From: Solitalea longa | Lineage (GTDB): Bacteria > Bacteroidota > Bacteroidia > Sphingobacteriales > Sphingobacteriaceae | Direction of reading: 5' to 3' | Assembly (NCBI RefSeq): GCF_002920915.1 | Contig: NZ_PQVF01000003.1 | Coordinates: 248,001 to 312,000 of the forward strand | DNA: 64,000 bases | Part shown: positions 17,283-63,931 of the stretch, one piece after another | How positions within the stretch are numbered: the first letter of the stretch is position 1 | Layout of the letters: each line of letters begins with the position of its first letter | Translations under genes and position numbers: made by a program | Notes under the pieces: generated by a model | The model's input: only the letters and a program-made list of their open reading frames with translations | Told to the model about the DNA's origin: nothing | Databases searched by the model: none

Positions 17283-17580
17283 TTCTTAGTTTATAGTCCC
17301 TAGTCGATGGTCCATAGTTTTCAGTCATCAGTCGGCAGTCAGCATTTCCCAAAATGTCGGTAGTCGGTAGTCGGTACTCGGTAGTCAGCCTGAGCGAAGT
17401 CGAAGGCAGTCAGCAGTACGCAACTATCGTCTATCGACTATGGACTATCGACTGTGAAATTACTGGGTGGGGATTAGGAGTTTGAGTGAAGGAAATGCAA
17501 ACTTTTTAACGAGCTGCTAGTTCTCTATAAACGATAGTCCATGGTCTATTAACTATCGACTATGGACTACGAACTATTGA
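17283..17580. repeat. Gene-free block of short inverted and direct repeats
   Basis: The 298 bases consist of variants of 'gtcggtagtcggtagtc' and 'ctatcgactatggactatcg' and their reverse complements, plus one copy of CAGCCTGAGCGAAGTCGAAG (about 17386-17405). The same unit recurs at 44.2-44.9 kb. No coding potential is visible. It lies between convergent genes and may end both transcripts. Confidence 0.8.
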
Positions 17581-18618
17581 CTAACTAACAGCTGCCTGTA
17601 TGGGTAAACCTGTTGATTCTCGTTCTAATAAAATTGGTTCAAGGACTATTGTTTCGGGCGGGTGAGCATAAAAGTTATGGTCTTTGTGAAGTTTTAAAAA
17701 CAAACGTGCAACTTCTTCGCCCATACGTACACTCTGTTGGTCAATTGTGCTTAACGAAGGAGAAATGTAGGCGCCAAATGCTTCGTTGGCAAAACCTATT
17801 ACTTTAACCTTTTCAGGCACCTTAATATCATGCACTTTTAGCTGTTGCATAACACCCAAAGCAGTGTAATCTTCAAAAGCAAAAACACCGTCAAAATCTA
17901 CTTTATTGTCATATAGCTGCTCAATACAACGCCGACCAAGTTTTATCGAAGGTTTACCGTAAAAAATAAGGTCCTCATCCAAGGGAATTTTATAATAGTT
18001 GAGGGCATCCTTGTAGCCCTGCAAGCGCTCTTGAAAGCTTTTTACATCTAAATTGGCCGAAATATGAACAATTCTTTTGCATCCCTGCTTAATTAAATGC
18101 TCTGCCGCTATAAACCCTCCCCGATAATCGTCGATACGAACCGTTGGGACGCTTAACTCATCAACGGCCCTGTCAAACAGGAGTAATGGGATATCGTTTC
18201 TTTTTATGTCTTGGTAATGAGTGAAATCAGAGGTTTCCATGGCCACTGACGCAAAAATACCTTCAACTCTTGATTGCATAAAGGTTTCAATTCCCTTGTT
18301 TTCATGAGAAAATGATTCACCCGACTGATAAAGCAGAATGCTATAGCCATTTTCATTCATCACCTTTTCAATTCCTAAAATTGTTGAGTTAAAGAAGTTG
18401 GCGGCCAAATTGGGAACCATAATACCTATAACGTTCGAGCGACCCGAACGAAGGGAGGAGGCAACTTTGTTTTGCTGATAATTTAATTTCCGGGCCACTT
18501 CTCTAACGGCTTCTTTGGTTGCTACACTAATGGCCGGATGATCATTTAATGCCCGGGCAACAGTAGAAAAAGTGACATTCAGCTCTCTGGCAATGTCGTG
18601 AATAGTGACCTTTTTCAA
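17581..18618 (-). CDS. LacI/GalR-family transcriptional regulator
   Basis: The 345-residue protein has the N-terminal LacI helix-turn-helix (VTIHDIARELNVTFSTVARALNDHP) and hinge (ASSLRSGRSNVIGIMVPN), then a periplasmic-binding-protein-like effector domain with FDGVFAFEDYTALGVMQQL and GFANEAFGAYISPSLSTIDQ. The family usually represses sugar-use genes and releases DNA on binding a sugar. No transport or sugar-kinase gene is adjacent, so the target is unknown. A perfect palindrome with the CG centre common in LacI operators sits 182 bases upstream of its start. Confidence 0.93.
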   Translation of the reverse strand: MKKVTIHDIARELNVTFSTVARALNDHPAISVATKEAVREVARKLNYQQNKVASSLRSGRSNVIGIMVPNLAANFFNSTILGIEKVMNENGYSILLYQSGESFSHENKGIETFMQSRVEGIFASVAMETSDFTHYQDIKRNDIPLLLFDRAVDELSVPTVRIDDYRGGFIAAEHLIKQGCKRIVHISANLDVKSFQERLQGYKDALNYYKIPLDEDLIFYGKPSIKLGRRCIEQLYDNKVDFDGVFAFEDYTALGVMQQLKVHDIKVPEKVKVIGFANEAFGAYISPSLSTIDQQSVRMGEEVARLFLKLHKDHNFYAHPPETIVLEPILLERESTGLPIQAAVS

Positions 18619-25474: not shown

Positions 25475-26112
25475 TGATTAAAGATACCCCGGTAAAAATT
25501 ATACAATGGTTCTTTATAGGTGTTGAGAAATTCTTGTTGCGACACTTTGCTTCCGTAAAATACCTAAATGAACCAACAGCAAGCGAAGATAAAGGCACGC
25601 TGGTGTTGATGAACCATGTAAGTTTCCTCGACGGAGCAATTATGCACAACTTCTGCCGACAAGTATTAAAGAAAAGATTTAAGGTAATGATACTTGAAGA
25701 GCAATTGAAAGTGTTCGCCTTATTAAAGTATGTTGGAGGCTTCTCGGTTAACCGCAAATCCCGGAATGTAATCGAATCGCTAGAATATGCCGCTAAATTA
25801 TTGGATGACCCCAAAAACGCTGTAGTGATCTTCCCGCAGGGCGAATTGTACTCTATGCATTTGAACCGGATTCATTTCGAAAATGGATTGATACATGTGC
25901 TTAATAAAACAAAGAAGCCGGTTCAGGTTATTTTCGCTGTTTTCCTTATTGATTATTTAGATAGTCTGAAGCCCAAGGCTCGCATTTATTTACAAGAATA
26001 CATGGGGGAGAATACCCAATCGGCAATGCAGGATAGCTACAATATTTTTTACAACGACTGTAAAAAACAAAACCGAAATTTTCATAAACCACCGGCCTGG
26101 GTTACGGAGTAA
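25474..26112 (+). CDS. PlsC-type lysophospholipid acyltransferase family protein
   Basis: The 212-residue protein has the acyltransferase motif I NHVSFLD (NHxxxxD) in LVLMNHVSFLDGAIM, motif II GGFSVNRKSRN and motif III FPQGE, a variant of FPEG. These enzymes transfer an acyl chain to a glycerolipid or a related acceptor at the membrane. It is translationally coupled to the hydrolase upstream. Its 3' end (last 14 codons) is duplicated at 30900-30945 as part of a 161-bp repeat, and the cassette array starts right behind it. Confidence 0.9.
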   Translation: MIKDTPVKIIQWFFIGVEKFLLRHFASVKYLNEPTASEDKGTLVLMNHVSFLDGAIMHNFCRQVLKKRFKVMILEEQLKVFALLKYVGGFSVNRKSRNVIESLEYAAKLLDDPKNAVVIFPQGELYSMHLNRIHFENGLIHVLNKTKKPVQVIFAVFLIDYLDSLKPKARIYLQEYMGENTQSAMQDSYNIFYNDCKKQNRNFHKPPAWVTE

Positions 26113-26229
26113 CTTGATTTTTAATCAATTCATTTATTATATTCGGTCATTAAAAATAGCGACGTCTATATGAAATATATACGCAACTATAATTAAAAAC
26201 AAACAATGAGTTGCGTATAGCGACTCGTT
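26069..26229 (+). repeat. 161-bp direct repeat, left copy, including a cassette head site
   Basis: It matches 30900-31060 over 161 bases with about six substitutions and no gap. It covers the last codons of the acyltransferase gene, a hairpin with 11-bp perfect arms (TATACGCAACT 26178-26188 with AGTTGCGTATA 26209-26219), and ends exactly at CGTT, where the sequence of a different cassette begins in each copy. The motif ATATGAAATATA is at 26168-26179. Confidence 0.95.
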
Positions 26230-26262
26230 GTGGCTCATGCCGTATCGACAGACAGACTACGA

Positions 26263-26805
26263 ATGAATAGACTAATTTTACTTACCAAAGTACTTCTACT
26301 GTTACTCCTCTTTTACTCTTGTGACAACGACACACTGACGTATATTCAACATATTGAATCACCGGACAGACAATCAATTATTTGCTTGTACAAAGAGAAC
26401 ACGGGAGTCAGCAACGTTGAATTTCACATTCTAAAAATTGAAAAAGCGATTGGCCCTGATAGACAAATTAGCAAAACCGACTATGACTGGATTCTTGACA
26501 GAGAATTGATTAATAATTTCGAGGAGTCAATGACTTACGCAACAAATCCTAAGATTAAACTAATTGACAATAGGTTCTTAATTTTTTCACGGAGTGACTA
26601 TCAATTTGCTCTTTACGACTTGAAATTAAACAAAGATATTTTAAACATCCGTGATCCCTGGAGTGAATGGGCAAGCAAGAACATTTGGGCTGAGAATGGA
26701 ACTGACTACAAGACTGACATAAAAGACGAACGGACTGACTACGGCCTCTGGATTAAAAAGAATCTTGACGACAAAATCGTTGAGTACCTTAAAACTAACA
26801 GGTGA
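26263..26805 (+). CDS. Cassette 1: small lipoprotein of unknown function
   Basis: The 180-residue protein starts at the ATG at 26263 with a lipoprotein signal (MNRLILLTKVLLLLLLFYSC, acylated Cys at 20). The rest is soluble, with no family I recognise; it contains many Asp, Asn and Lys and a YDLKLNKDILNIRDPWSEW segment. It is more AT-rich than the neighbouring host genes and prefers GAC. The cassette (26228-26899) begins GTTGTGGCTCATGCCGT and its tail just after the stop codon reads ACGGCACGAGCCACAAC, complementary apart from one base. Confidence 0.75.
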   Translation: MNRLILLTKVLLLLLLFYSCDNDTLTYIQHIESPDRQSIICLYKENTGVSNVEFHILKIEKAIGPDRQISKTDYDWILDRELINNFEESMTYATNPKIKLIDNRFLIFSRSDYQFALYDLKLNKDILNIRDPWSEWASKNIWAENGTDYKTDIKDERTDYGLWIKKNLDDKIVEYLKTNR

Positions 26806-26815
26806 ACGGCACGAG

Positions 26816-26905
26816 CCACAACAAAATGTATAATCCATGGCGCTGCTAAGGAAGACATTTTTTTTATTTTTGCTCAGCGCCACGGCGTATAAATAAGCGT
26901 TACAC
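26816..26905 (+). other. attC-like site 1
   Basis: R'' CCACAAC is at 26816-26822, left inner arm TGGCGCTG at 26838-26845, right inner arm CAGCGCCA at 26875-26882, and core box GTTACAC at 26899-26905. The loop is T-rich. The predicted crossover is between G26899 and T26900. Confidence 0.7.
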
Positions 26906-26935
26906 GCAATAGTTAATGACCGAATTGGTTAATCC

Positions 26936-27661
26936 ATGAAAAGCTTTTCAAACTTATCTATCTTAATTGGACTACTTTTTACATCATATGGATGTGGGTT
27001 AGGGAAATGGGATGTTGGGGAACAGTACATCCAGAAAATCGAAGGAACTTCCAAGTTGCTATATAAGTACGACGCATGGGGAGGAAGAGATTCTCACTGT
27101 GCTGGGTATGTTATCCTTGATTCAAGTGAAACATTTAAAGTAGACCCAAAAGAGAACTTACCTTTCTATTATTTGATGGGAATTCCAAATAAGACAGTTA
27201 TCGAAGGAGTGAGCCACATTTGCGATAATAGCTGCGGTGAGGTCTATAAAAAAGCAATTTCAAATTTTATTCCCTTAAAGAAAGAGGCTAGTGAGAGACA
27301 AGGTATCCATGTAATAAATATCGTCTACCAATATAAAGGATTTGCTGAAAGAGGAGGAGGAATAGAGCGGTACCATTTTGAAAATTTTAAAGAAACACGG
27401 GATAGCTTGTTTTTTTACAATTTGGATGATGTTGAAAGCAGGAATGGACAACATGTGGATAGTTTGCAGTTCAGGAAAACAGATGTTACTATCATGCAGA
27501 ACGAAACCAATGATATAAATAAAATAATTATCCAAGATTTGGTTGTTGACAGAGCTGCATATGAAATTAAATCGAATATTACTTATTATTTAACGCCTAA
27601 AAGTAAGGTCAGGTCGAATTCATTTTCGGATTATGGAATCTTTAAAGAGGTTGCGAAATAA
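26936..27661 (+). CDS. Cassette 2: lipoprotein of unknown function
   Basis: The 241-residue protein has a signal with a lipobox-like TSYGC (Cys at about 20) and no domain I know. It contains a GGRDSHCAGYVILDSS stretch and two further cysteines in SHICDNSCGEV that could form a disulphide outside the cytoplasm. Base composition and codon use match the other cassettes rather than the host genes. The cassette spans 26900-27793; its head GTTACAC is complementary to its own R'' GTGTAAC. Confidence 0.75.
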   Translation: MKSFSNLSILIGLLFTSYGCGLGKWDVGEQYIQKIEGTSKLLYKYDAWGGRDSHCAGYVILDSSETFKVDPKENLPFYYLMGIPNKTVIEGVSHICDNSCGEVYKKAISNFIPLKKEASERQGIHVINIVYQYKGFAERGGGIERYHFENFKETRDSLFFYNLDDVESRNGQHVDSLQFRKTDVTIMQNETNDINKIIIQDLVVDRAAYEIKSNITYYLTPKSKVRSNSFSDYGIFKEVAK

Positions 27662-27667
27662 TACTGT

Positions 27668-27799
27668 GTGTAACAGTGTGTTTAAATTATGCCCTTGTGA
27701 TGTGGTTCTCGAAGTTTTCTGCTTTTTAATTACATGAGTTCGACTCGACACGGAAGTGATTCTAATCGGGCATAATATAAACACTAAGCGTCGCCGGCG
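27668..27799 (+). other. attC-like site 2
   Basis: R'' GTGTAAC is at 27668-27674. The left arm AGTGTGTTTAAATTATGCCC (27675-27694) pairs with GGGCATAATATAAACACT (27768-27785). The right core box reads GCCGGCG (27793-27799), apparently GTTGGCG with two T-to-C changes, judged from the complementary tail of the next cassette. Confidence 0.65.
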
Positions 27800-27831
27800 G
27801 CCATTCATTGAAACAAATCGGGTCGACAATG

Positions 27832-28353
27832 TTGCAGGACAAATATTTAAGACAATCTGACTTTTCTAAATCGGAATTCATTGAAATCAATGCTCCAATT
27901 GACAAGGTATATCTTGTAGTAGAGACATTGAATTTTGAGAAATCCAGAATAATTTATTGGCTCTTTAAGTTAAGGGGGATCCCTGTTCCAGAGAGTTTAA
28001 CGTTAAAAGGACTTGAGAAAATTAATTTTGTAAAACTGGAGACAATACCCAATAAGGAAATAATATTAGGACTCATAGGACAATTTTGGACTCCAACGGG
28101 TCGACTGAAAAAATTTAAACCAGAGGAATTCATAAACTTTGACGATTCAACGTTTGCAAAAGCAACCTGGAATTTTGAACTGACGGAAAGTAATGATCTT
28201 AAAACCAGATTAAATACGGAGACAAGGATATTTTGCCCGACAACTAAGACAAAAAAGAAGTTTAAAATATACTGGACAATCATTCAACCATTTAGTTCTT
28301 GGATTAGGAAAGAGATATTGAGAGCAATAAAAAACCAAGCGGAGAATAATTAA
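27832..28353 (+). CDS. Cassette 3: SRPBCC-like protein of unknown function
   Basis: The 173-residue protein begins at the ATG at 27832 (MLQDKYLRQSDFSKSEFIEINAPIDKVY). The opening strand FIEINAPIDKVY is typical of SRPBCC/START-like ligand-binding folds, and the length fits such a single domain. No signal peptide is seen. The ligand is unknown. The cassette (27794-28479) ends with ACGGCCGCCAAC directly after the stop codon, complementary to GGCGGCC at its head. Confidence 0.6.
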   Translation: MQDKYLRQSDFSKSEFIEINAPIDKVYLVVETLNFEKSRIIYWLFKLRGIPVPESLTLKGLEKINFVKLETIPNKEIILGLIGQFWTPTGRLKKFKPEEFINFDDSTFAKATWNFELTESNDLKTRLNTETRIFCPTTKTKKKFKIYWTIIQPFSSWIRKEILRAIKNQAENN

Positions 28354-28357
28354 CGGC

Positions 28358-28485
28358 CGCCAACAATAGCTGTTTGCAATGGCGAGGGTCGGTGTAAATT
28401 GGTAGTTTAGTTTTTAAATTATGTTTGGTCACGTTGACAATGACGTTTTCAAAAGCCAGCCACTGCAAATAACCAAACCTTATGT
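28358..28485 (+). other. attC-like site 3
   Basis: R'' CGCCAAC is at 28358-28364. The left arm TGTTTGCAATGGC (28371-28383) pairs with GCCACTGCAAATAA (28459-28472). The right core box CTTATGT (28479-28485) differs from GTTATGT by one base. No cassette gene follows; 285 bases without a recognisable gene lead to the beta-helix gene. Confidence 0.6.
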
Positions 28486-28770
28486 GTACAAATTTTAACA
28501 ACCGAAAATGCGTAAAAATCAATACTCTTAATTTCGATCATATTCTTCTTACTCGTAAATAGTACCGATTATTGGTTGATAGCCTGGACCATGGGATTTT
28601 GGTAGTTCAGTAATGATGTTCATTAGCTTTCCAACTCTTGCAATCATTCTAATAACCGTTAGATAGTCCATTGCTCTGCACGATAATAGTTGGTTTATTT
28701 ATCCTATCCAGATCACACACTCAAAAGCAACCCACAATAATCAAACAACTATACTGATACATAAAACCAC

Positions 28771-30882
28771 ATGAACAAACGATTGCTGTTAGTCATCACT
28801 TTTTTTAATGCTTTTATTCATTTTGCGAACGCAGCAGATATTACGCTATATGTGATTCCAAAAGGAAAGGGAAACGGAACCAAACAATCGCCGGCTTCTC
28901 TTCAACAAGTGATTTCCATGTTGCCACAACTGAAAAAGGAGAATCAAAAAGGAAGTATCTCTATCATATTAAAAAATGGCACTTATGAATTAAGCGAACC
29001 CATTCGTATCACGCCAGAAAACGGAGGTTCAAAAGATTTAAAAATCATCTTTAAGGCCGAAATCAATGCCCGGCCCATTATTAGCGGAGGGAAAAGGATT
29101 ACAATGACGGGAGATGGAATCCTGTCGGCTGATCTTTCTTCTCTTTTAAAAGGGAAAGAAGGAATGTTGCAGGATCTTTATATCGATGGCAAAAGGGCTG
29201 TTCGGGCAAGGAGGCCTAATATTGGTTTCTTGAAATTTAAAAAGACTTCTGAAAAAAAGACATCAGATTTACCCTGGCACGAAACTACTTCTGTTCAATA
29301 CTATGAAATTCCAGCAGAAACCTATACCGAACTAAAAAAACTTTCTCCTGAGAAATTAAAGAATGTACGATTCAACGTATATCATAAGTGGATCGTTACG
29401 AGCCGTAACATTGATTCATTGAGTACTACCAGCTCTGGCTTTTACTCCACCGGTCAGGGCCTGCCACCCTATAACAAGATTGATGAAACATCGCTTTTCT
29501 TTTTGGAAAACGTTGCCAATGCACTGGACTTAAAAAATGAATGGGTAATCGATGAAAACAATAGGGTGAATTATATTCCTGAGGATACCGGCAAAAAGAA
29601 AGTAGAAGCCATAGTACCCGTGGTGGAAAAATTATTACTTATTGAAGGTGATAGTGAAAACGTGGTAAACAATGTTTTTTTTCAGGGTATTTCATTTTGT
29701 TATGCGAATAAACCATTCACAGCCTCTAAATATGGTCAGGCTGCTGCGGCAGTTGATGCGGCTATTGTGCTAAATGATGCGGAAAATATTCGCTTCGAAA
29801 ATTGCAGCATTATGCATACCGGGCAATACGCCATTTGGTTCAAAAAAAATACAAAGTATTGTACCATGAGTAAGTGTTATGTCAATGATTTGGGTGCAGG
29901 TGGCGTTCGTATTGGGCCTATGGAACTTCCAAAGGATACATTAACACTTACTTCAAACATCAATATTGAAAACTGTATTATTCATTCGGGAGGGAAAAAC
30001 TATCCGCATGCCGTGGGTGTGCATATTACACATTCTGCCAATAACAATATTGTCCACAACGACATTGCTGACTTTGGATATACTGGCATATCCGTTGGAT
30101 GGGTTTGGGGTTATGCGTTCAGTCCTTCAATTAACAATAAAGTGCTGTATAATCATGTTCATCATATAGGTTGGGCAATTCTTAGCGATATGGCGGGAAT
30201 ATATACGCTTGGTGTTTCTCCCGGCACGGAAATAAGCCACAATGTCGTCCATGATGTGTATTCTTATGGTTATGGTGGCTGGGGATTATATACTGATGAA
30301 GGCTCTTCAAGTATTCGTATGGAAAATAACCTGGTGTATCATACCAAAACCGGTGGCTTTCACCAGCATTTCGGAAAAAATAACATTATCAATAATAATA
30401 TCATTGCCTTCAGTAAAAAGTTCCTGGCGCAGTTTACAAGGGCCGAAGACCATCAGAGTTTTGAATTCAAGCATAATATATTGTTGGCTGATGGGGAACG
30501 GTTTCTTGAAGGTCGCTGGCAACAGGGAATTATAAACATTGACAGTAATTGTTATTGGAATAGCAACAACAAAAAAAGCCTGTTTATGATTTCCTCTGTA
30601 AAGTATGGCAATAAAACCAATGATACCTTATCCTTTAAACAATGGCAACAAACCAGCGGCAAGGACAAAAACAGCCTATTCCAAAATCCTGGCTTTAAAG
30701 ACCCTGAGAAATATGATTTTACTATTCACAACCCTTCTGTCATTCAACAAATAGGGTTTATACCGTTTGATTATAACAAGGCAGGCGTTACAGGTGATAA
30801 GCAATGGAAGAAACTAGCTGTTCTGCCGGAGAATATTATCCGGGAGTTCGACAAATCGGTGCGAGAAACAATGTTGGAGTAA
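28771..30882 (+). CDS. Right-handed parallel beta-helix protein, exported
   Basis: The 703-residue protein has a signal peptide (MNKRLLLVITFFNAFIHFANA). From about residue 300 it has the repeating short strands of a parallel beta-helix (NIRFENCSI, CTMSKCYVNDLGAGGVRIG, NNNIVHNDIADFGYTGISVG, NNKVLYNHVHHIGWAI, ISHNVVHDVYSYGYGGWG). This is the fold of pectate lyases, alginate lyases and related polysaccharide-active enzymes. The catalytic residues cannot be named from sequence alone. Size and composition look host-like, and it carries no attC-like site, so it is not a cassette but separates cassette blocks I and II. Confidence 0.85.
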   Translation: MNKRLLLVITFFNAFIHFANAADITLYVIPKGKGNGTKQSPASLQQVISMLPQLKKENQKGSISIILKNGTYELSEPIRITPENGGSKDLKIIFKAEINARPIISGGKRITMTGDGILSADLSSLLKGKEGMLQDLYIDGKRAVRARRPNIGFLKFKKTSEKKTSDLPWHETTSVQYYEIPAETYTELKKLSPEKLKNVRFNVYHKWIVTSRNIDSLSTTSSGFYSTGQGLPPYNKIDETSLFFLENVANALDLKNEWVIDENNRVNYIPEDTGKKKVEAIVPVVEKLLLIEGDSENVVNNVFFQGISFCYANKPFTASKYGQAAAAVDAAIVLNDAENIRFENCSIMHTGQYAIWFKKNTKYCTMSKCYVNDLGAGGVRIGPMELPKDTLTLTSNINIENCIIHSGGKNYPHAVGVHITHSANNNIVHNDIADFGYTGISVGWVWGYAFSPSINNKVLYNHVHHIGWAILSDMAGIYTLGVSPGTEISHNVVHDVYSYGYGGWGLYTDEGSSSIRMENNLVYHTKTGGFHQHFGKNNIINNNIIAFSKKFLAQFTRAEDHQSFEFKHNILLADGERFLEGRWQQGIINIDSNCYWNSNNKKSLFMISSVKYGNKTNDTLSFKQWQQTSGKDKNSLFQNPGFKDPEKYDFTIHNPSVIQQIGFIPFDYNKAGVTGDKQWKKLAVLPENIIREFDKSVRETMLE

Positions 30883-30899
30883 GGGGAGGGACTTTGTTT

Positions 30900-31060
30900 A
30901 AAACCGAAATTTTCATACACCACCGGCCTGGGTTAGGGATTAACTTGATTTTTAATCAATTCATTTATTATATTCGGTCACTAAAAATAGCGACGTCTAT
31001 ATGAAATATATACGCAACTATAATTAAAAACAAACAAGGAGTTGCGTATAGCGACTCGTT
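30900..31060 (+). repeat. 161-bp direct repeat, right copy, with duplicated acyltransferase 3' end
   Basis: It is the partner of 26069-26229. The first 46 bases still encode the last codons of an acyltransferase (NRNFHTPPAWVRD and stop), with changes relative to the intact gene (NRNFHKPPAWVTE). ATATGAAATATA is at 30999-31010, the same hairpin follows, and it ends at CGTT, where cassette 4 begins. The sequence just upstream belongs to the end of the beta-helix gene. Confidence 0.95.
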
Positions 31061-31091
31061 ATAGGGCATTTTAAAGGACGATACAACGACA

Positions 31092-31583
31092 ATGATAAAT
31101 CAACTATTGAAAGGACTTGTTGACCTAATTTATGGAACAAGACGAGTAAGACGAAAATATCAACTAGACAATCCGACTGAAAAAGTTTTCGCAGCAGATG
31201 CCTGTAAAGGTATTATGACAACTTCCAACCAGGACATTCAACATGGACTTGACTGGATGATCTCACAACGTGCAGTAATAATGTTGACAAATAAAAAAAT
31301 AGTTTGTGGTAAATGGACAATTTTGCTTGATAACATTATATCAATACAGCTTCTAAAAATAAACTCGTTATTAGGGGGAGGGCAAGTATTAAAGATCCAG
31401 ACCAAAGAGGGTAAAAACTATCAATTCGGTATGCAACTAAATCCTGAGTGGACAAACCAACAGGTTTTACAATTGACACTTGAAAAGGGCCAAATAAAGC
31501 ACTCACCATTGAGTGTTATCATAAGATTAGCAGCAATTGGTTGTTTAATTTATTGGTTTTATGAAAGTTTTATTCAAAATTGA
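31092..31583 (+). CDS. Cassette 4: small protein with a C-terminal membrane segment
   Basis: The 163-residue protein is mostly soluble, with a short-strand pattern (AVIMLTNKKIVCGKWTILLDNIISIQLLK) that resembles bacterial PH/GRAM-like domains, and ends in one hydrophobic segment (LSVIIRLAAIGCLIYWFYESF). It is therefore likely a tail-anchored inner-membrane protein. The function is unknown. Cassette 31059-31739: head GTTATAGGGCATTTT against tail AAAACGCCCTATAAC, 14 of 15 bases complementary. Confidence 0.7.
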   Translation: MINQLLKGLVDLIYGTRRVRRKYQLDNPTEKVFAADACKGIMTTSNQDIQHGLDWMISQRAVIMLTNKKIVCGKWTILLDNIISIQLLKINSLLGGGQVLKIQTKEGKNYQFGMQLNPEWTNQQVLQLTLEKGQIKHSPLSVIIRLAAIGCLIYWFYESFIQN

Positions 31584-31612
31584 CGGTTTGGATGGTGGTA
31601 ACAAAAAACGCC

Positions 31613-31745
31613 CTATAACATCCGCTTGCCGCAAACGCGGTGGACGTGCAATTTTGAACTGAAAACTTAATTAATAAATTTACGCCACGGCTGACTTAGA
31701 CGCAGGTATTTTCACCGCGCCTTCGGCAAGCCCAAAACGTTAGCG
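31613..31745 (+). other. attC-like site 4 (family A)
   Basis: R'' CTATAAC is at 31613-31619, left arm GCTTGCCGCAAACGCGGTG at 31624-31642, right arm CACCGCGCCTTCGGCAAGC at 31713-31731, and core box GTTAGCG at 31739-31745. The arms pair with a central mismatch block. It is nearly identical to site 10 although the genes in front of the two are unrelated. Confidence 0.8.
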
Positions 31746-31755
31746 CGCATTTATT

Positions 31756-32376
31756 ATGACGAGTAGAGCAATAGACGACTTTATATTTTCTTGTGACTTG
31801 TCATTTGACTACGGACTCATTGACATTGAGACTTATCAATTCCGCCAAATTTCACTTTACGACCTACTTGACGTTGACAAAAATGTTATAGGTGATTTCA
31901 TTCCAAATTATATCGTTGAAGAATTTTACAAAGGACAGGAGAACGAAGGTGACAATGAGGTTGGGAATCTAATTGACGGACAAATTGGAAAAAGGGAGAT
32001 GACTAAAGACTCAAAAAATAATCTACTCTATCTCTACAAGACGACAACCAAAGGAAAGCATTGCAATTGGGTGTTTCACGAGCTCGATGCTGACCCGAGG
32101 CCCTCTGTCCCTCACGGACATGGTGTCGAAGTTGGACATTACAAACTTGACCCCTATTGCAGATTTATATACAACGTAAAAAATGGCCTTGACAAATGGG
32201 TTGACAAAGAGGACAAAAAGTACATAAAAGCGTTGTGGAACGATAATGAGTTCAGATATTGGACACTTTGGTCAATAAAAGAATTCATGAAATCTGGACA
32301 GGTTGGAAGAAACTACAATTGGCTTCGAATAAGAGGAATTGTAAATCCGACCAAGTTACCAAGGAAGAGAAAATAA
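31756..32376 (+). CDS. Cassette 5: protein of unknown function
   Basis: The 206-residue soluble protein has no signal peptide and no family I recognise. It has a His-rich stretch (PSVPHGHGVEVGHYKLDPYCRF) that could bind a metal and a basic C-terminus (PTKLPRKRK). The start is the only suitable ATG, 11 bases after the core box of attC-like site 4. The cassette spans 31740-32538; head GTTAGCGCGC is complementary to its tail GCGCGCTAAC. Confidence 0.7.
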   Translation: MTSRAIDDFIFSCDLSFDYGLIDIETYQFRQISLYDLLDVDKNVIGDFIPNYIVEEFYKGQENEGDNEVGNLIDGQIGKREMTKDSKNNLLYLYKTTTKGKHCNWVFHELDADPRPSVPHGHGVEVGHYKLDPYCRFIYNVKNGLDKWVDKEDKKYIKALWNDNEFRYWTLWSIKEFMKSGQVGRNYNWLRIRGIVNPTKLPRKRK

Positions 32377-32381
32377 ACGCG

Positions 32382-32544
32382 CGCTAACAAAATGTTTATG
32401 CAATTGCGGGGTACGGTGTTAAATTGTAGTTTGTGTTTCAAATGTAGTTCGGTCATGTGGGACAATTTGCGGCAGGTCGGGTTTAACATTCCGCTACGCT
32501 CCATTTTAAACCCTTCTATTCCCGCAACTGCATAAACGTTCCAA
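32382..32544 (+). other. attC-like site 5
   Basis: R'' CGCTAAC is at 32382-32388. The left arm GTTTATGCAATTGCGGG (32394-32410) pairs with CCCGCAACTGCATAAAC (32521-32537). The core box is GTTCCAA (32538-32544). A second hairpin, GGGTTTAA with TTAAACCC, lies inside the loop. At 163 bases this is the longest site in the array. Confidence 0.75.
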
Positions 32545-34554: not shown

Positions 34555-34654
34555 GTTGACCTTTGTTGTTATTTGCCTACTCAGTCATTATCTTAGGAAT
34601 CTGGTCTCTTGTTAATGCAACAAGGAAATTGTTTCCAATTCAACTGTTTTTTAT

Positions 34655-35677
34655 ATGTCCACAGACTTTTGGGTAAGTATGCCCATTATCAGAAATATTG
34701 TTTTAGGAACCGAAGCTAGCACTGCGCAGATCGAAAGCATTTGCTGGGCCGGTGGAATTACTCCCCAAGAACTGGAAGATGCCGGCTACAGGCTGTCCCT
34801 GGAACAAAACTGTGCAATTATGGAAGCGGCATTGACCATTTCAGGGAAAAGGAACATGGGGCTGGAAATTGGCAAAAAAACAACTTCAGTGGTACTGGGC
34901 ATTACGGGTCATTTAATGCAGACCAGTAAAGATGTTTTAACGGCGCTTGAAAGCCTGCAGCAATTCACGGCGGCTTTTACCCGCTTGTACAATTTCTATA
35001 TTGAAGTGAAGGACCAGGATCTGTATTATTATTGTGAGCCCTTGCAGGTATGGAACGATATCTCGCCCGAAACTGCAAGACATAGTGTGGATATGGCCTA
35101 TGCCGGAACGCTGCATGTGTTGTATCTCTTAACAGGCAAGCTGTTTTCGTTGAAAAAGGTGATGTACCGATATTCAAGGGTCAGTGATACAAGTTTGCAT
35201 GAGCAGCTATTCAAGTGTCGGCCCACCTTCAATGAAACATGCAATTGCATGGTGTTTTCCATGGCAGATATGAAAACAACTGTTATTGGCTATAATAAAG
35301 AGCTGAATGAGGTGTTCAAAGCATTGTTGGAAAAAGAGATGGATAAAGAGAGGAGTGTGGCTGATTTTAGTGCTGAGGTGAGACAAAGCATTCTTAAGCA
35401 TTTTAATTATACGTTTCCGCAGTTGGAAGAAATAGCAGCACATCTGCGCTTAACACCCCGAACATTGCAGCGTAAACTAAAAATAGAAAACACCAGCTTC
35501 AGGGTATTGAGCGATAACATTAAGCATGAGCTGGCCTGTAGCTTGTTGCGCAGCGAAAAACTTACAATTGCTCAAATTTCCTATAAGCTGGGTTATACTG
35601 AACCAAGTACCTTTCAAAGGGCCTTTCGCGAATGGACTGGCACATCACCTAACGCTTATCGAAAAGCATTAATTTAA
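34655..35677 (+). CDS. AraC-family transcriptional regulator
   Basis: The 340-residue protein has an N-terminal effector-like region (about 1-190) of the Arabinose_bd type and a C-terminal AraC DNA-binding domain with two helix-turn-helices: FPQLEEIAAHLRLTPRTLQRKLK and LTIAQISYKLGYTEPSTFQRAFREWTGTSPNAYRK. The second helix-turn-helix carries the AraC signature. The likely targets are the convergent cytochrome c and membrane protein genes (inference). Codon use is host-like. Confidence 0.92.
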   Translation: MSTDFWVSMPIIRNIVLGTEASTAQIESICWAGGITPQELEDAGYRLSLEQNCAIMEAALTISGKRNMGLEIGKKTTSVVLGITGHLMQTSKDVLTALESLQQFTAAFTRLYNFYIEVKDQDLYYYCEPLQVWNDISPETARHSVDMAYAGTLHVLYLLTGKLFSLKKVMYRYSRVSDTSLHEQLFKCRPTFNETCNCMVFSMADMKTTVIGYNKELNEVFKALLEKEMDKERSVADFSAEVRQSILKHFNYTFPQLEEIAAHLRLTPRTLQRKLKIENTSFRVLSDNIKHELACSLLRSEKLTIAQISYKLGYTEPSTFQRAFREWTGTSPNAYRKALI

Positions 35678-35694
35678 TGGCATTAATGCTTTTC
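35661..35694. terminator. Bidirectional hairpin that overlaps both stop codons
   Basis: GAAAAGCATTAA (35661-35672) pairs perfectly with TTAATGCTTTTC (35683-35694). Each arm is part of the last codons of one of the two convergent genes, whose stop codons lie only five bases apart. Confidence 0.7.
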
Positions 35695-36576
35695 CCGAAT
35701 TTGCTGCAGGTACATGAAAATAGATTTAAGCTCTTCGTCAGTAAAATGGCCAATTGATTTCCAGGGCATATAATTATTATTCAATTCTTTTCCCTCAGGT
35801 GTTTTTCCATTTCTAATGGTGGCGATGAATGACTGCTCGTTCCAGTTTCCTACATTTCCATCGCCGGTAATATTGGGTACTGGCGGAAAACCAGGCGCCA
35901 AAGGGCCTCCTCCTTTCATGTCGGGCCGGTGACAGCCTTGGCAGCCAGAAGACAAATATTGCCCATAAGCTACGCCCGTTTTTTCTTTCAGCTTTTCTGT
36001 ATGGATGGCACGGTGATCGATCTTTTCTGCAGGTAGTACGGTAACCTGGTTGATGACCATTAACAGCCGTCCTATGGGGCCTATCGAATGAAGTTTTTCT
36101 TGCAGATTGGCAACAGGAGCCAGTTGCTTGCAATAAGCGATCAGGTTGGCCAGGTCTTCATTGGTGAGGGTGTTGATCTCATGAGATGGCATCATAAATA
36201 ATGACCTGCCGTTTTTGTCTACACCATGCCTAAGCACACGCAGCCAGTCGGTCGTTTTAAAAGCTGCAATTTCGCCATTGCCTTTCGTTAAGTTAGGTGC
36301 TGTAAGTTGTATGAGCATTTTATCATCCATAAACAGGCTACCTTCGCCCTTTTCGCCATGACAATCCTGGCAGCTTCTGATTTTATATAGATGTTCTCCT
36401 TTTGCTATCGATAAAGAATCGCTGGGAATACTGATCGCTGCATCAGTGTACGAATATGTCTTTTGAATCCGTTGTTGACTCAAATTATAGATAACAAGAT
36501 AGGCGATTGCGAGCACCAGCAATAGGGAGATAATAGTGATCTTTGACCACTTCAATAATTTCTTAAGCAGTTTCAT
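35683..36576 (-). CDS. Membrane-anchored di-heme cytochrome c
   Basis: I use the Met at 36576 (MKLLKKLLKWSKITIISLLLVLAIAYLVIY), which gives one N-terminal membrane anchor; three more codons are possible upstream. Two CxxCH heme sites follow, in RSCQDCHGEKGEG and SGCQGCHRPDMKGGG, with distal Met candidates (MMPSHEI, NNYMPWKS). This is the arrangement of periplasmic electron-transfer cytochromes that accept electrons from dehydrogenases. It overlaps the upstream membrane protein gene by 14 bases, so the two form an operon. Confidence 0.9.
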   Translation of the reverse strand: MKLLKKLLKWSKITIISLLLVLAIAYLVIYNLSQQRIQKTYSYTDAAISIPSDSLSIAKGEHLYKIRSCQDCHGEKGEGSLFMDDKMLIQLTAPNLTKGNGEIAAFKTTDWLRVLRHGVDKNGRSLFMMPSHEINTLTNEDLANLIAYCKQLAPVANLQEKLHSIGPIGRLLMVINQVTVLPAEKIDHRAIHTEKLKEKTGVAYGQYLSSGCQGCHRPDMKGGGPLAPGFPPVPNITGDGNVGNWNEQSFIATIRNGKTPEGKELNNNYMPWKSIGHFTDEELKSIFMYLQQIREKH

Positions 36577-37303
36577 GGGTAGCATATGGTAAAGTAGGGT
36601 GAAGAGTATCAGAAGGTTGTTTCATCGATTTTTTTAGAAGGAATATCCCAATGATGATTGGCCATATAATTCCAAGTATCAGGTAAAGGTTCAGGCCTGC
36701 ATCGGATAGCAGAGTTAGGTTAAACATATTACCCAATGCATCCGATAAAGTACTTAATCCAGCAATAAACGTTAGTACTCCCAGGCTCTTGTTTTCGCTG
36801 TAGATCAGTTTGCCTAAACCCATCCACCATACAGCTGCAAATAGAACTTCCAAAATGTTCCACATACCCACAGTAACCATGGTTGTAATAGCTTTGAACA
36901 GCTGAGTGATCATCATTTTGTTTTCAGGGTTAGCCGATGCATGATCAGTTAATAAACTAGGCCAAACCGCGGCAAGAATAGCTGCGCCAATTGCGCCTGT
37001 AAGTACATAGGCGCAACCCGAAAAAGTGATGAGCGGTGACCATGGTGTTCTATACCTGTATTGCTGATGGAAATAGAAGATCAAGGGTAGCAGCAAAAGG
37101 TAATAACCCAGCATATCTAGCAAATTGAACCATTTTACCAGTTGCATATTAGTTGCATACTTAATGGTGAGGGAAGGATCGGAGAATGCTTCAAAATGAT
37201 AATTTACTGCCAACACCCCAACTAGCAGGCAGCCTAGTGAAAGCAACCCGGCTACAATGCTAATTGCGCCAATTGCAAAGCGATATTCAAAAAAGTTTTT
37301 CAT
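36563..37303 (-). CDS. Polytopic membrane protein of unknown function
   Basis: The 246-residue protein has about six membrane segments, including FAIGAISIVAGLLSLGCLLVGVLAV and LDMLGYYLLLLPLIFYFHQQYRY. I do not recognise a specific family; DUF4386-like proteins have a similar layout. It is translated together with the cytochrome c gene, so it may be a membrane partner of that protein (inference). Confidence 0.75.
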   Translation of the reverse strand: MKNFFEYRFAIGAISIVAGLLSLGCLLVGVLAVNYHFEAFSDPSLTIKYATNMQLVKWFNLLDMLGYYLLLLPLIFYFHQQYRYRTPWSPLITFSGCAYVLTGAIGAAILAAVWPSLLTDHASANPENKMMITQLFKAITTMVTVGMWNILEVLFAAVWWMGLGKLIYSENKSLGVLTFIAGLSTLSDALGNMFNLTLLSDAGLNLYLILGIIWPIIIGIFLLKKSMKQPSDTLHPTLPYATHETA

Positions 37304-37512
37304 ATTATTTTTTTAACAAAAATGGAGGAAGCGGCATTTTAATCGGTTAACAGATGACGACAAAAAGCTGATATTTTGCGCCAAGCCGGAAGGTGGAACA
37401 ACTCATGAATAACTAAATAAGCAGGGACGATTTGGATAGAAAACTGAAATAGCTATTTTAGAGCACTGAGAACCTATAACGGTTTACCATTTAAATAAAC
37501 AAACATAAAGAC

Positions 37513-37555
37513 ATATGAAATATACATGCACTCGGGGTGTATGTAAAAACAAGTT
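37513..37555 (+). other. Cassette head site of block III
   Basis: ATATGAAATATA (37513-37524) runs into a hairpin (TACATGCAC 37523-37531 with GTGTATGTA 37537-37545, one G-T wobble). Seven bases then lead to GTTACAA (37553-37559). The head sites in the 161-bp repeats have the same motif, the same hairpin position and the same seven-base gap. No R'' box precedes the hairpin. Confidence 0.6.
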
Positions 37556-37569
37556 ACAAGCAATTTTAA

Positions 37570-37977
37570 ATGACGCTCGATCCCGAAAAATATCAACAGA
37601 AACTAGACCTTAGAATAGCAGATTTTTCAACTAGATTCATGAACAATGCTAAGTGGTCAAAATTGTTCAAAAAGTTGTCTGAAAACTGTGACTTAATTAA
37701 CAAGTGCCTTGTCAAAGATGTGCTGGACAATATATTGAGAGAAATAAAAATTCCGGCTCTTGAAAAGTTTGACGAAACATTTTACAGCAAAGGCATTAAT
37801 GATATTATGGTTGGAGGACCGTCAACTTTTAAAGCAATTGAGTGGATTGAATTTCCGTATCAAATAACCGAAAGACAAACACAAGATTTATTGAAAATTA
37901 AAAATCTGCTGGAGCAAATTGGACAATTGGAAATCGAATATACTCCAGAAAAGCTGATGGTTTTTGGGTACAAATAA
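37570..37977 (+). CDS. Cassette 10: small protein of unknown function
   Basis: The 135-residue soluble protein has no signal peptide and is mainly helical, with a DNILREIKIPALEKFDETFYSKG segment. I know no family for it. It begins 14 bases after the cassette crossover point. Cassette 37554-38124: head GTTACAAGCA is perfectly complementary to tail TGCTTGTAAC. Confidence 0.7.
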   Translation: MTLDPEKYQQKLDLRIADFSTRFMNNAKWSKLFKKLSENCDLINKCLVKDVLDNILREIKIPALEKFDETFYSKGINDIMVGGPSTFKAIEWIEFPYQITERQTQDLLKIKNLLEQIGQLEIEYTPEKLMVFGYK

Positions 37978-37996
37978 ATTACAAAATAAAAACTGC

Positions 37997-38130
37997 TTGT
38001 AACAGCCGCTTGCCGCAAACGCGGTGGAGGAGCAATTTTGAACTGAAAACTTAATTAATATTTTTACATCACGGCTGATAAAGACGCAGGTATTTTCACC
38101 GCGCTTTCGGCAAGCGCCAAAACGTTAGCT
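37997..38130 (+). other. attC-like site 10 (family A)
   Basis: R'' TTGTAAC is at 37997-38003, left arm GCTTGCCGCAAACGCGGTG at 38008-38026, right arm CACCGCGCTTTCGGCAAGC at 38097-38115, and core box GTTAGCT at 38124-38130. The left arm is identical to that of site 4, 6.4 kb away; the rest differs at few positions. Confidence 0.8.
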
Positions 38131-38154
38131 GCTATAATACCAAGAAATCAAACT

Positions 38155-38868
38155 ATGAACAAATATATTTCGCTATTAGTTTTATTAACAACATTCCTGT
38201 GCTCGTGTAATGAAGGGGCTAATAATAAAAGAGAGGATAAATCAGACTCCTTAAAATCAAATGAGCTGACGATTAAAACCGACAGTTTGAAAATAGAGCT
38301 GGAAAAAAACCTGGTTTTTTTTGCCGACACTCTTTTACATGGGAAAAGAGACCTAATCAAGAACTATGTAATTAGATATCAACCCGACACATGTGGTATT
38401 ATTGTTTACCCAGATACCCTGCTTAAAAGCGAATTTGAAGGCATTAAAGGTCTTGTAGACATTAATGGAAACAAGATAATTGATAGTGTTTTCGTAATTC
38501 CACCATTTAATTATTGTGACGAAGGAGAGTCGTATTGTTTTTTTGATAAATCCTTGCCAAGACTTTTTACTGATTCATACTGTTGCCAACCTGACAACTT
38601 ATTTGTTGTGGACGACATTGATGAAGACGGCATTAAAGAAATTGGTATTTTTTATTCAACTTGTGTTAGCAGATACAAATCATTAAGGATTTATAGTTTA
38701 AAAAATAACTCTTGGAATGAAATAGGCACATCAACATTTGACATTCAAACACAAGATCCAACAACTATTCAATTTGAAAAATTAGTAAAAAAGACATCAA
38801 AAAATAAATTCACAATCTGTGAGTTTAACGATGGAAAAACAGAATGGATAGAGCAAACAATGAAATAA
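38155..38868 (+). CDS. Cassette 11: lipoprotein of unknown function
   Basis: The 237-residue protein has a lipobox LCSC (MNKYISLLVLLTTFLCSC) and a Ser/Asp/Lys-rich linker. Its acidic repeat-like segment VVDDIDEDGIKEIGIFYS has the D-x-D-x-D-G calcium-binding loop pattern seen in FG-GAP/VCBS-like surface proteins. No other domain is recognised. The cassette starts at 38125; head GTTAGCTGC is complementary to its tail GCAGCTAAT except for the last base. Confidence 0.72.
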   Translation: MNKYISLLVLLTTFLCSCNEGANNKREDKSDSLKSNELTIKTDSLKIELEKNLVFFADTLLHGKRDLIKNYVIRYQPDTCGIIVYPDTLLKSEFEGIKGLVDINGNKIIDSVFVIPPFNYCDEGESYCFFDKSLPRLFTDSYCCQPDNLFVVDDIDEDGIKEIGIFYSTCVSRYKSLRIYSLKNNSWNEIGTSTFDIQTQDPTTIQFEKLVKKTSKNKFTICEFNDGKTEWIEQTMK

Positions 38869-40717: not shown

Positions 40718-40734
40718 AAAAGCCTGCCCGTGTT

Positions 40735-40798
40735 CCTTTAAGTGTTCGCGCAGCGGTCACTTAAAGGTTAAAATAAAACAGAGGTCTCTGACCGGCAA
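40735..40798. repeat. REP-like hairpin element, copy 1
   Basis: CCTTTAAGTG (40735-40744) pairs with CACTTAAAGG (40758-40767), followed by AATAAAACAGAGGTCTC and GACCGGC, which contain a small GGTC/GACC hairpin. The same element occurs 189 bases downstream. Confidence 0.7.
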
Positions 40799-40923
40799 GA
40801 TGCATTAGCCAGCTTTTAATGTACTTTTTTGAACCAGGCCATCACAGCCAATCGGCGAACGATTAACCATCCCCCTTATTCTTTTCTCTTAAGTATAAAA
40901 TCCATAATACCTATCCCTTTGTT

Positions 40924-40985
40924 GTCTGAAGTGTTCAGCGAAGCGTCACTTCAGACCGTAAATAAAACAGAGGTCTCCGACCGGC
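40924..40985. repeat. REP-like hairpin element, copy 2
   Basis: GTCTGAAGTG (40924-40933) pairs with CACTTCAGAC (40947-40956), followed by the same AATAAAACAGAGGTCTC and GACCGGC. The stem has compensatory changes relative to copy 1, so the hairpin itself seems to be under selection. A shorter similar hairpin plus ACAGAGG lies at 41147-41178. The rest of the 471-base gap 40718-41188 shows nothing recognisable. Confidence 0.7.
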
Positions 40986-44079: not shown

Positions 44080-44980
44080 TGTGTCATGTTGAGCGTAGTC
44101 GAAACACCCTTCGACCCTGCTCAGGCTGACACAAGCCAGAGGCACTTTGTACTTCTAACTTTTAACTTCTGACTTTGGAATGTACTATGCATTTTTTAAT
44201 CTTGTACTTCTGACTTCTACTTTTCTGTCAGCCTGAGCGAAGTCGAAGGCCTGTTGCAATAGGCTGCGACTCCGCTCATGGGGACTATCGACCACCACTG
44301 CTTACAGGCAACAGCAAACTGCAAAATAGCGACTGCAAATCACCGAATGCCAACTGCGCGTCGACTATACGCCTAGTATACGTCTAGTATACGTCTAGTA
44401 TACGTCTAGTATGCGTCTAGTATACGTCTAATGCGCTTCGACTGCCTCAGTCCGACAACAAACTGTGAATTGCTTACTGCCGACTGCAAACTGCCTTCGA
44501 CTGCGCTCAGGCTGACTACCGGCTGCTGACTGCTTACTGCCTTCGACTGCGCTCAGAGTGACAAAAGCCAGCGGCACTTTGTACTTCTAACTTTTAACTT
44601 CTGACTTCTACTTTTCTGTCAGCCTGAGCGAAGTCGAAGGCCTGTTGCAATAGGCTTTGACTCCGCTCAGGGGGACAATCGACCACCACTGCTTACAGGC
44701 AACAGCAAACTGCAAAATAGCGACTGCAAATCACCGAATGCCAACTGCGCGTCGACTATGCGTCTAGTATGCGTCTAATGCGCTTCGACTGCCTCAGTCT
44801 GGCAACAAACTGTGAATTGCTTACTGTCGACTGCAAACGAAAGACTGCCCACTGCTGACTGCCTACTGCCTTCGACTGCGCTCAGGCTGACTACCGACTG
44901 CTGACTGTCGACTGAGTACTGCTAACTGCTAACTGCCAACTGCCGACTGAGGACTGTCAACTGTCAACTGCCAACTACCT
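44080..44980. repeat. Complex repeat block: 432-bp tandem duplication, 11-bp minisatellite, REP-like units
   Basis: The segment starting at 44134 recurs at 44566 (period 432). Each unit holds 'tttgtacttctaacttttaacttctgac', CAGCCTGAGCGAAGTCGAAG and long runs of ctgactgc-type words. An 11-bp unit TATACGTCTAG is present in about six copies at 44366-44431 and two at 44757-44778. CTTCGACTGCGCTCAGGCTG units appear in both orientations. No coding region is seen. Confidence 0.9.
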
Positions 44981-61912: not shown

Positions 61913-63931
61913 ATGATTAAAAAAATACAACTGCTGTTTTCCTTATGTTTGCTATTTGCTCTGCCAGCTATGGCACAGCAGGATGCGCAATTCAGCCAGT
62001 ATATGTTCAATGGATTATATATCAATCCGGCGTATGCGGGCTATAAGCAAAACCTGAACATTAATACCTTTTACCGTACGCAGTGGACGGGTTTTCAGGG
62101 ATCTCCCCGAACCATGACACTTTCGGTGGATGCGCCCATGTATGATAATGCAATGGGTTTAGGTTTTCAGGTAGCAAGTGACAAAATAGGATATTCTGAC
62201 GAGCTATCGGCTTATGGTATTTATTCTTACAGATTACAGCTCGATGATGAAGAATCGCGATTAGCTTTTGGCTTAGGCGTTGGCTTTTATCGTTATGCCT
62301 TTAAAGGATCCAACAGTATTGTGGATGACCCGAGTGATCCATTGTATTCTGACAATAATTCAAGTACCATCCATCCAGAAATCAAATTCGGATTGTTTTT
62401 TAATTCGGATCGGTTTTATGCAGGGCTTTCGGCAAACAATTTATTATCACCTTATCTTAAGTACGAACCCGATGCAAGTACATTGGCACCTAAAAAATCG
62501 ACGCAGGTATATTTAACTGCAGGTGCTGCCTTACCGCTGAGTGATTATGTGGTGATGAAGCCATCATTTTTAATCAAGCAAGATGTTAAGGGATATTCAA
62601 CCATCGATATCAATACCTTTTTCTTATTGTATGACAAAGTTTGGGTAGGAGGATCTTTCCGTAATAGTTTCAGATTCATCAATAAACTACCTAATCAACC
62701 TGTATATAATACTAATGCTGCTGTTTTAATGACTGAGCTATTCCTTAGCGAGAAGTTCAGATTAGGATATGCCTATGATATGTCATTGAGTGCGGTAAAA
62801 GACCTTAATGCCAGTTCACACGAAATTTCTTTGAGCTACAGTTTAGATGTTGAGGATCTTTTCCCTCCAAGATCGCCTAGTGCGGGTAATGTAAGAGGGA
62901 TTACCGAACGTGCGGATAAGGCTGAACGGGAAGCAAAACAAAAAGAAAAACCGAAAGAACCGGTAAAAGAACAACCTAAAGCTCCGGCACCGGAAAAACC
63001 GAAGCCAGAACCTAAAAAAGAAGAGCCTAAAGCTGTTGATAATAGCTTGCAGGAAAAAGCAGCGAAAGAAGCCAAAATTAAAGCAGAGGCCGAGGAGAAA
63101 CAAAAACGCGAGGCGGAAGCGAAACAGGCCGAAGAGCAAAAAGCTGCTAAAGCACAGGCCGAAGCAGAGGCGAAGAGGAAACGTGAGGCAGAAGCTAAAC
63201 AAGCTGAAGAGATGAAAGCTGCTGAAGCTCAAAAAGCGAAAGATGAAGCGAAAGCTAAAGCACAAGCCGAAGCCGAAGCGAAGAAAAAACGTGAAGCGGA
63301 AGCTAAGCAAGCGGAAGAACAGAAGGCTGCTGAAACTCAGAAAGCAAATGATGAAGCGAAAGCTAAGGCACAAGCAGAAACTGAAGCGAAGAAAAAACGC
63401 GAAACGGAAGCTAAGCAAGCTGAAGAACAGAAGGCTGCCGAAACTCAGAAAGCAAATGATGAAGCGAAAGCTAAGGCACAGGCAGAAACTGAAGCGAAGA
63501 AAAAACGTGAAGCTGAAGCTAAACAGGCTGAAGAACAAAAGGCTGCTGAAGAGCAAAAAGCGAAGGATGAAGCTAAAGCTAAAGCCATGTCAGAGGCGGA
63601 AGTGCAGAAAAAACGTGAACAGGAAGAAAAAGATAGAGTTAAACAGGAAGAGCGTGCAATAGCTGAACAGAAGAAACGTGAAGCTGATGAAAAACGTGAA
63701 ACGGAACGTAAAGTTCGTGAGGCTGAAAAAGAAAGAAAACTAGCAGAGCAACGTGAACGTGATGCCGAAAAAGAGAAAGAACGCCTGGCGAAAGAGAAAG
63801 AAGAGCAAATGAAGGCGAATGAAACTCCATTCGAACGTGAGGAAAGACGTAAAGCTGAAAAAGAAGAAGAAAAACGAATTAAGAAATTAAAACGAATGAA
63901 AGGGGCAATGGCCTCACCAAGGTATTTCTAG
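61913..63931 (+). CDS. PorP/SprF-family protein with a long Lys/Glu/Ala-rich repeat tail
   Basis: The signal peptide (MIKKIQLLFSLCLLFALPAMAQ) is followed by a PorP/SprF barrel domain to about residue 310 (QDAQFSQYMFNGLYINPAYAGYK, RTQWTGFQGSPRTMTLSVDAP, SLSYSLDVEDLFPP). Such proteins help type IX secretion or anchoring of substrates, and the gene often follows a type B substrate gene as here. Family members usually stop near residue 310-340. This one continues with a Pro/Lys linker and about 300 residues of charged helix that contain four 36-residue repeats. The tail resembles TolA domain II in composition, so it may span the periplasm (inference). Confidence 0.9.
   Translation: MIKKIQLLFSLCLLFALPAMAQQDAQFSQYMFNGLYINPAYAGYKQNLNINTFYRTQWTGFQGSPRTMTLSVDAPMYDNAMGLGFQVASDKIGYSDELSAYGIYSYRLQLDDEESRLAFGLGVGFYRYAFKGSNSIVDDPSDPLYSDNNSSTIHPEIKFGLFFNSDRFYAGLSANNLLSPYLKYEPDASTLAPKKSTQVYLTAGAALPLSDYVVMKPSFLIKQDVKGYSTIDINTFFLLYDKVWVGGSFRNSFRFINKLPNQPVYNTNAAVLMTELFLSEKFRLGYAYDMSLSAVKDLNASSHEISLSYSLDVEDLFPPRSPSAGNVRGITERADKAEREAKQKEKPKEPVKEQPKAPAPEKPKPEPKKEEPKAVDNSLQEKAAKEAKIKAEAEEKQKREAEAKQAEEQKAAKAQAEAEAKRKREAEAKQAEEMKAAEAQKAKDEAKAKAQAEAEAKKKREAEAKQAEEQKAAETQKANDEAKAKAQAETEAKKKRETEAKQAEEQKAAETQKANDEAKAKAQAETEAKKKREAEAKQAEEQKAAEEQKAKDEAKAKAMSEAEVQKKREQEEKDRVKQEERAIAEQKKREADEKRETERKVREAEKERKLAEQRERDAEKEKERLAKEKEEQMKANETPFEREERRKAEKEEEKRIKKLKRMKGAMASPRYF
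63161..63592 (+). repeat. Four tandem 108-bp repeats inside the PorP-like gene
   Basis: Units start at 63161, 63269, 63377 and 63485. Each encodes 36 residues of the type EAEAKKKREAEAKQAEEQKA followed by AETQKANDEAKAKAQA. The DNA is nearly as conserved as the protein, especially between units 2 and 3, so copy number is likely to vary by slippage or recombination. Confidence 0.92.

Follow-up and report, generated by a model that had tools for sequence, protein, structure and literature searches.

The analysed window is a stretch of 64,000 nucleotides from the genome of Solitalea longa (G000). It contains an array of gene cassettes, partly degraded and interrupted by a non-cassette block, with an acyltransferase gene (PF01553; 25474–26112, plus strand) as its left chromosomal flank. 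A 161-bp direct repeat is present in two plus-strand copies, at 26069–26229 and 30900–31060. The initial annotation described them as an ungapped match with about six substitutions; pairwise alignment reproduced the match without gaps, with 156 of 161 bases identical, and set the count at five (left-copy positions 26087, 26105, 26109, 26150 and 26207). One copy matches the other in a genome search with E = 8e-73, which excludes chance. In each copy, the final 44 bp of the acyltransferase reading frame are followed by approximately 117 bp of non-coding sequence, and thus both carry the last codons of the gene and its stop (ending at 26112 in the left copy), as had been annotated. The common end point was also given correctly: the identity stops at CGTT, since the cassettes begin with TT, and different cassettes follow (26227–26822 and 31058–31619).

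It had been proposed to look in relatives for the acyltransferase gene followed by a single 161-bp unit. This arrangement was found at the same chromosomal place in the sister genome (G001), where a protein 97% identical to the acyltransferase precedes one 161-bp-like unit and other cassettes. G001 has the base of the left copy at all but one of the five differing positions; these four are changes of the right copy, and three of them alter codons of the dead acyltransferase tail. A decayed duplicate is therefore a likelier reading of the right tail than another functional allele, which counts against the earlier suggestion that the right copy came from a related, non-identical allele. The left copy is the ancestral one.

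Units of the array and the attI-like site

All cassettes of the window lie on the plus strand. Cassette A (26227–26822, ORF 26230–26805) reads GTTGTGGCTC...GAGCCACAAC at its boundaries; it has complementary ends (GTTGTGGCTCATGCC / GTTGTGGCTCGTGCC) and an attC-like site at about 26808–26898. It is followed by cassette B (26899–27674, ORF 26936–27661), whose ends are complementary with two changes, and by cassette C (27790–28364, ORF 27808–28353), which has degraded ends, was delimited by reading the sequence, and has an attC-like site extending to about 28479. The next unit (28480–31057, plus strand) contains a gene for a beta-helix protein (28771–30882) and the right attI-like site at its end, and lacks a complementary end of its own. 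Downstream of the right repeat copy are cassette E (31058–31619, ORF 31092–31583; boundaries GTTATAGGGC...GCCCTATAAC; attC-like site 31605–31738) and cassette F (31739–32388, ORF 31756–32376). The non-cassette block inside the array (34561–37555) contains an AraC-type regulator and its neighbours on both strands and is 94% identical in G001. The array then continues with cassette H (37553–38003, ORF 37570–37977, attC-like site 37989–38123) and cassette I (38124–38868, ORF 38155–38868), the latter with a degraded end. The three cassette ORFs between the repeat copies, which share this interval with the beta-helix gene, have no Pfam match; overall, Pfam recognised the cargo of two out of ten cassettes. 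In all 35 listed units, the array strand carries the longest ORF.

Several other repeats were seen in the window: 108-bp tandem repeats (63038–63685) within ORF 61913–63931; short-repeat families of the CGACTGC / CGACTAT type at 44108–44973 and 17359–17586, 27 kb apart and partly mutually inverted; and two 66-nt copies (40731–40985), each with a hairpin-like start and then AAATAAAACAGAGGTCTC(T/C)GACCGGC, to which no gene was assigned.

The repeat was searched against its own genome. Beside the two copies, three partial matches were obtained, each of which stops at this CGTT point or slightly beyond it, and a fourth, marginal match covers positions 51–75 only. The best partial match (contig C14, 24638–24698, 82% identity) covers approximately the last 60 bp of the repeat. 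It is located between the stop of a gene encoding a 536-aa tyrosine recombinase (C14:22959–24569) and a cassette array, and has no acyltransferase sequence beside it. Many homologous loci have comparable short stretches with a TATA-rich end motif ahead of their first cassette. Given these stretches and the C14 match, the non-coding part of the repeat is read as an attI-like site, with its core in the left copy at about 26170–26229 and the crossover before 26228; the attI next to the recombinase gene is likewise defined by sequence only, as the conserved stretch between the recombinase and the first cassette. Two further attI-like sites of this genome (C31:220076–220133 and C1:98117–98182) have no recognised recombinase gene nearby, and a tblastn search found no recombinase remnants near them.

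Cassette ends and their predicted folding

A cassette opens with 15 nt that are reverse-complementary to its own end, except at position 11: ten complementary nucleotides are followed by the mismatch and then by about four more. The mismatch is nearly constant, A at the start and C at the end. On the bottom strand these bases form a G.T pair, and the stem there continues without a break. Eighteen cassettes of this genome were compared; for 16 of them the limits had been set from attC-core similarity only, with the ends unused, and the remaining two are those starting at attI-like sites. At all seven variable positions the start agreed with the cassette's own end in 15 of 18 cases, compared to none of the 306 non-own pairs, and 0 of 20001 permutations reached the observed start/end total. 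Three pairs failed the rule; for two of them the cause was decay of the ends or the skipping of intermediate cassettes whose attC went unrecognised. In three additional sets of loci, where no base was prescribed at position 11, almost every pair again follows this pattern. Cassette starts such as GTTATAC, GTTACAT and GTTGTGG lie outside the core consensus GTTRRRY / RYYYAAC.

The predicted DNA folding energy was lower for the bottom strand at 31 of 32 sites (mean difference 4.7 kcal/mol). When position 11 was changed in silico to a standard pair, the mean difference decreased to 3.6 kcal/mol, so the share of this position is about 1.1 kcal/mol. Position 11 as the sole cause of the strand bias was thus rejected.

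The C14 recombinase and its homologs

The best NCBIfam match of the C14 protein is the integron integrase TIGR02249, with 221.5 bits, below the cut-off of 265; XerA is next (213.6 bits). The genome contains no TIGR02249 match over the cut-off. IntI4 (2a3v) is the best sequence match in PDB, and against both TIGR02249 and IntI4 a gap falls exactly at the IntI-specific domain, which known integron integrases are held to require. The insert is also missing from all 15 homologs examined. The tyrosine-recombinase active site R-K-H-R-H-Y is present in invariant alignment columns. In the phylogenetic tree, all nine IntI proteins group together with 100/100 support, and the module-bearing proteins described below fall outside this clade; the tree does not settle the order relative to Xer.

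At the N-terminus, the C14 protein weakly matches the HARP domain PF07443 (21.2 bits, the cut-off being 25), and one of 18 homologs matches it at E<=0.01. We refer to these N-terminal modules, which the recombinases linked to cassettes usually carry, as HARP-like because of such weak or below-cut-off matches; the module was also defined by an HMM of our own. The AlphaFold model of the homolog from Flavobacterium enshiense (mean pLDDT 81) contains a confident beta-beta-alpha-beta-beta-alpha module at residues 7–60. The rest of the model resembles IntI4 and Xer, with PDB fold matches covering the SAM-like and catalytic parts. Animal HARP proteins of the SMARCAL1 type are described as annealing helicases in PMC4035279. 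By this analogy an annealing-type role of the module here is only a guess, resting on the weak sequence match; more generally, the module may work with single-stranded or folded DNA.

The end rule, as learned from the S. longa genome, was used to scan the recombinase loci of further species. It detected cassettes at many loci in Flavobacteriaceae, Cyclobacteriaceae, Hymenobacteraceae, Chitinophagaceae and other families, the first one starting mostly about 70–160 nt past the recombinase match. No cassette matches in the reverse direction were observed downstream of the recombinases, and a part of the homologs have no recognised cassette nearby. Cassettes are present at 22 of 30 loci with the HARP-like module and at 6 of 38 without it, an association confounded by kinship. 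A homolog (E<=1e-75) is encoded in 91 of 296 sampled Bacteroidota genomes, and not all of these head arrays. As a control, 51 classical IntI loci yielded three end-rule matches, and the complementarity of starts and ends there fades after 7–10 nt.

On a Chryseobacterium plasmid (NZ_CP041688.1, 6995–11255; L322), a recombinase of the family is accompanied by three cassettes delimited by the same rule. Four genomes from three families share the cassette that comes first behind the recombinase (loci L218, L226, L231, L238); its product resembles the lincosamide nucleotidyltransferase Lnu(H), with 452 bits against a cut-off of 540 for NF040958. Short recombinases outside the module-bearing group (L176, L250, L256) have cassettes with a similar end rule on their other side, and hence the rule may extend beyond Bacteroidota; of these, L176 was tested for the HARP-like module and lacks it.

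Cassette movement was visible as traces in genomes. G000 and G001 have, at the same chromosomal place, common flanks, an attI-like site, attC-like sequences and the 94% identical non-cassette block, and no cassette ORF of one genome matches one of the other there. In the genome of another species (G013), the 520-bp cassette adjoining attI is an exact copy of the cassette two positions down. The left limit of the identity is precisely G|TT; at the right it runs six bases further, into the following cassette, a stretch in which cassette starts resemble one another. The exact copy and the cassette turnover are consistent with insertion and excision of cassettes.

Origin of the second copy and the proposed system

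The repeat is very probably the end of a host gene fused to an attI-like site, which provides two insertion points for cassettes in an integron-like system that the C14 recombinase would serve in trans. The enzyme would be the 536-aa tyrosine recombinase, whose gene is directly followed by an attI-like site and an array of its own; such linkage of recombinase and array is seen across the phylum. Single-ORF cassettes end in attC-like sites; a long hairpin is the predicted fold of their bottom strand. The recombinase would join cassettes at the G|TT point as integrons do, probably using the folded bottom strand. Since the recombinase gene is on another contig, we infer rather than observe its action on the window sites. 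The acyltransferase tail would have been duplicated together with the attI-like site.

The duplication itself may have happened without the recombinase, by homologous or illegitimate recombination (a segmental duplication or a single-crossover insertion from a related strain) that carried the attI-like site along. The second copy includes 44 bp that are coding and belong to no recombination site, has just five changes in 161 bp, and is joined to the beta-helix sequence at a junction, 30899/30900, that is no recombination point. Under this explanation it would be a coincidence that unit 28480–31057 is bounded by two crossover points, the left one at the end of an attC-like site and the right one that of attI. 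We consider the chances of this explanation about even. A somewhat more tentative possibility, which we place a little below even, is that the beta-helix unit is a delta-attI-type cassette, that is, an ORF with attI as its 3' site, moved by the recombinase. Its bounds, an attC-like end and the attI crossover with no complementary end of its own, agree with this, and such cassettes are known and functional in class 1 and 2 integrons (PMC12901181). The left border of the unit, however, is C|TT instead of G|TT, and no second example was found among the loci studied here. The beta-helix gene is absent from this place in G001, and segment 28480–28790 has no match elsewhere in the genome. The gene was rejected as an old fixed neighbour, since its homologs in the genus are 31–41% identical and located elsewhere.

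The initial annotation favoured integration or recombination at a gene 3' end by a site-specific element that rebuilds its target gene. The former part holds insofar as an apparent site-specific site lies directly behind the 3' end and heads the cassette blocks. A direct repeat spanning the gene 3' end would also fit an element that duplicated and restored it, but its own integrase was looked for among the ORFs between the copies (26230–30900) and is absent; the intact gene end is the left copy, matching the sister genome; the right tail, just 44 bp long, has altered codons; and no acyltransferase sequence flanks the attI-like core on C14. Such an element is thus very unlikely. Still less credible, indeed very improbable, is a classical integron remnant that has lost IntI (CALIN) with the C14 recombinase unrelated: CALINs are common (PMC9024848) and the site architecture is like that of attC, but the genome lacks an above-threshold TIGR02249 match, and across the phylum the end rule tracks the C14-type recombinase, not IntI.

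By anatomy and genomic traces, the proposed system works like an integron. A strict classification as an integron was withheld, since the tests for the IntI-specific domain and the GTTRRRY consensus gave negative results. The case is evenly balanced for a broader reading, that these arrays represent a second Bacteroidota integron lineage outside the IntI clade, in which HARP-like modules in place of the IntI domain handle folded single-stranded sites and the position-11 pair (A/C on the top strand, G/T below) helps to mark the strand. Surveys defining integrons by the IntI-specific domain detected almost none in Bacteroidetes, at first only In0 and later one complete integron, in Salinibacter (PMC9024848). 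If the arrays are active, capture of gene cassettes would be common in a major environmental phylum and missed by standard criteria, and the system makes the need for the IntI-specific domain in recombination of folded attC directly testable. It may also matter for resistance tracking, given the Lnu(H)-like first cassettes and the plasmid-borne array. A description of such a system was not found in the open literature, which is no proof of novelty.

With sedentary chromosomal integrons the system shares a tyrosine recombinase, an adjacent attI-like site, one-direction arrays of single-ORF cassettes with mutually complementary ends, the G|TT crossover and fast cassette turnover. It differs in that the recombinase has HARP-like N-terminal modules and no IntI-specific domain, the complementary ends span 15 nt, compared with about 7 nt in integrons, and have the nearly constant A/C mismatch at position 11, the GTTRRRY consensus is absent, and the array is usually downstream of the recombinase gene and co-directional with it. 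Xer proteins (XerA, XerC/D) have the same fold and catalytic residues, with sequence scores near those to IntI, whereas the C14-type recombinases are linked to cassette arrays and have the extra N-terminal modules. As in the delta-attI-type cassettes of class 1 and 2 integrons (PMC12901181), an attI site ends an ORF unit within the array; in contrast to them, the attI-like site here carries the tail of a chromosomal gene, and movement of the unit is hypothetical. Finally, the window array resembles a CALIN in having no recombinase gene of its own, yet contig C14 of this genome encodes a matching recombinase alongside the same attI-like core.
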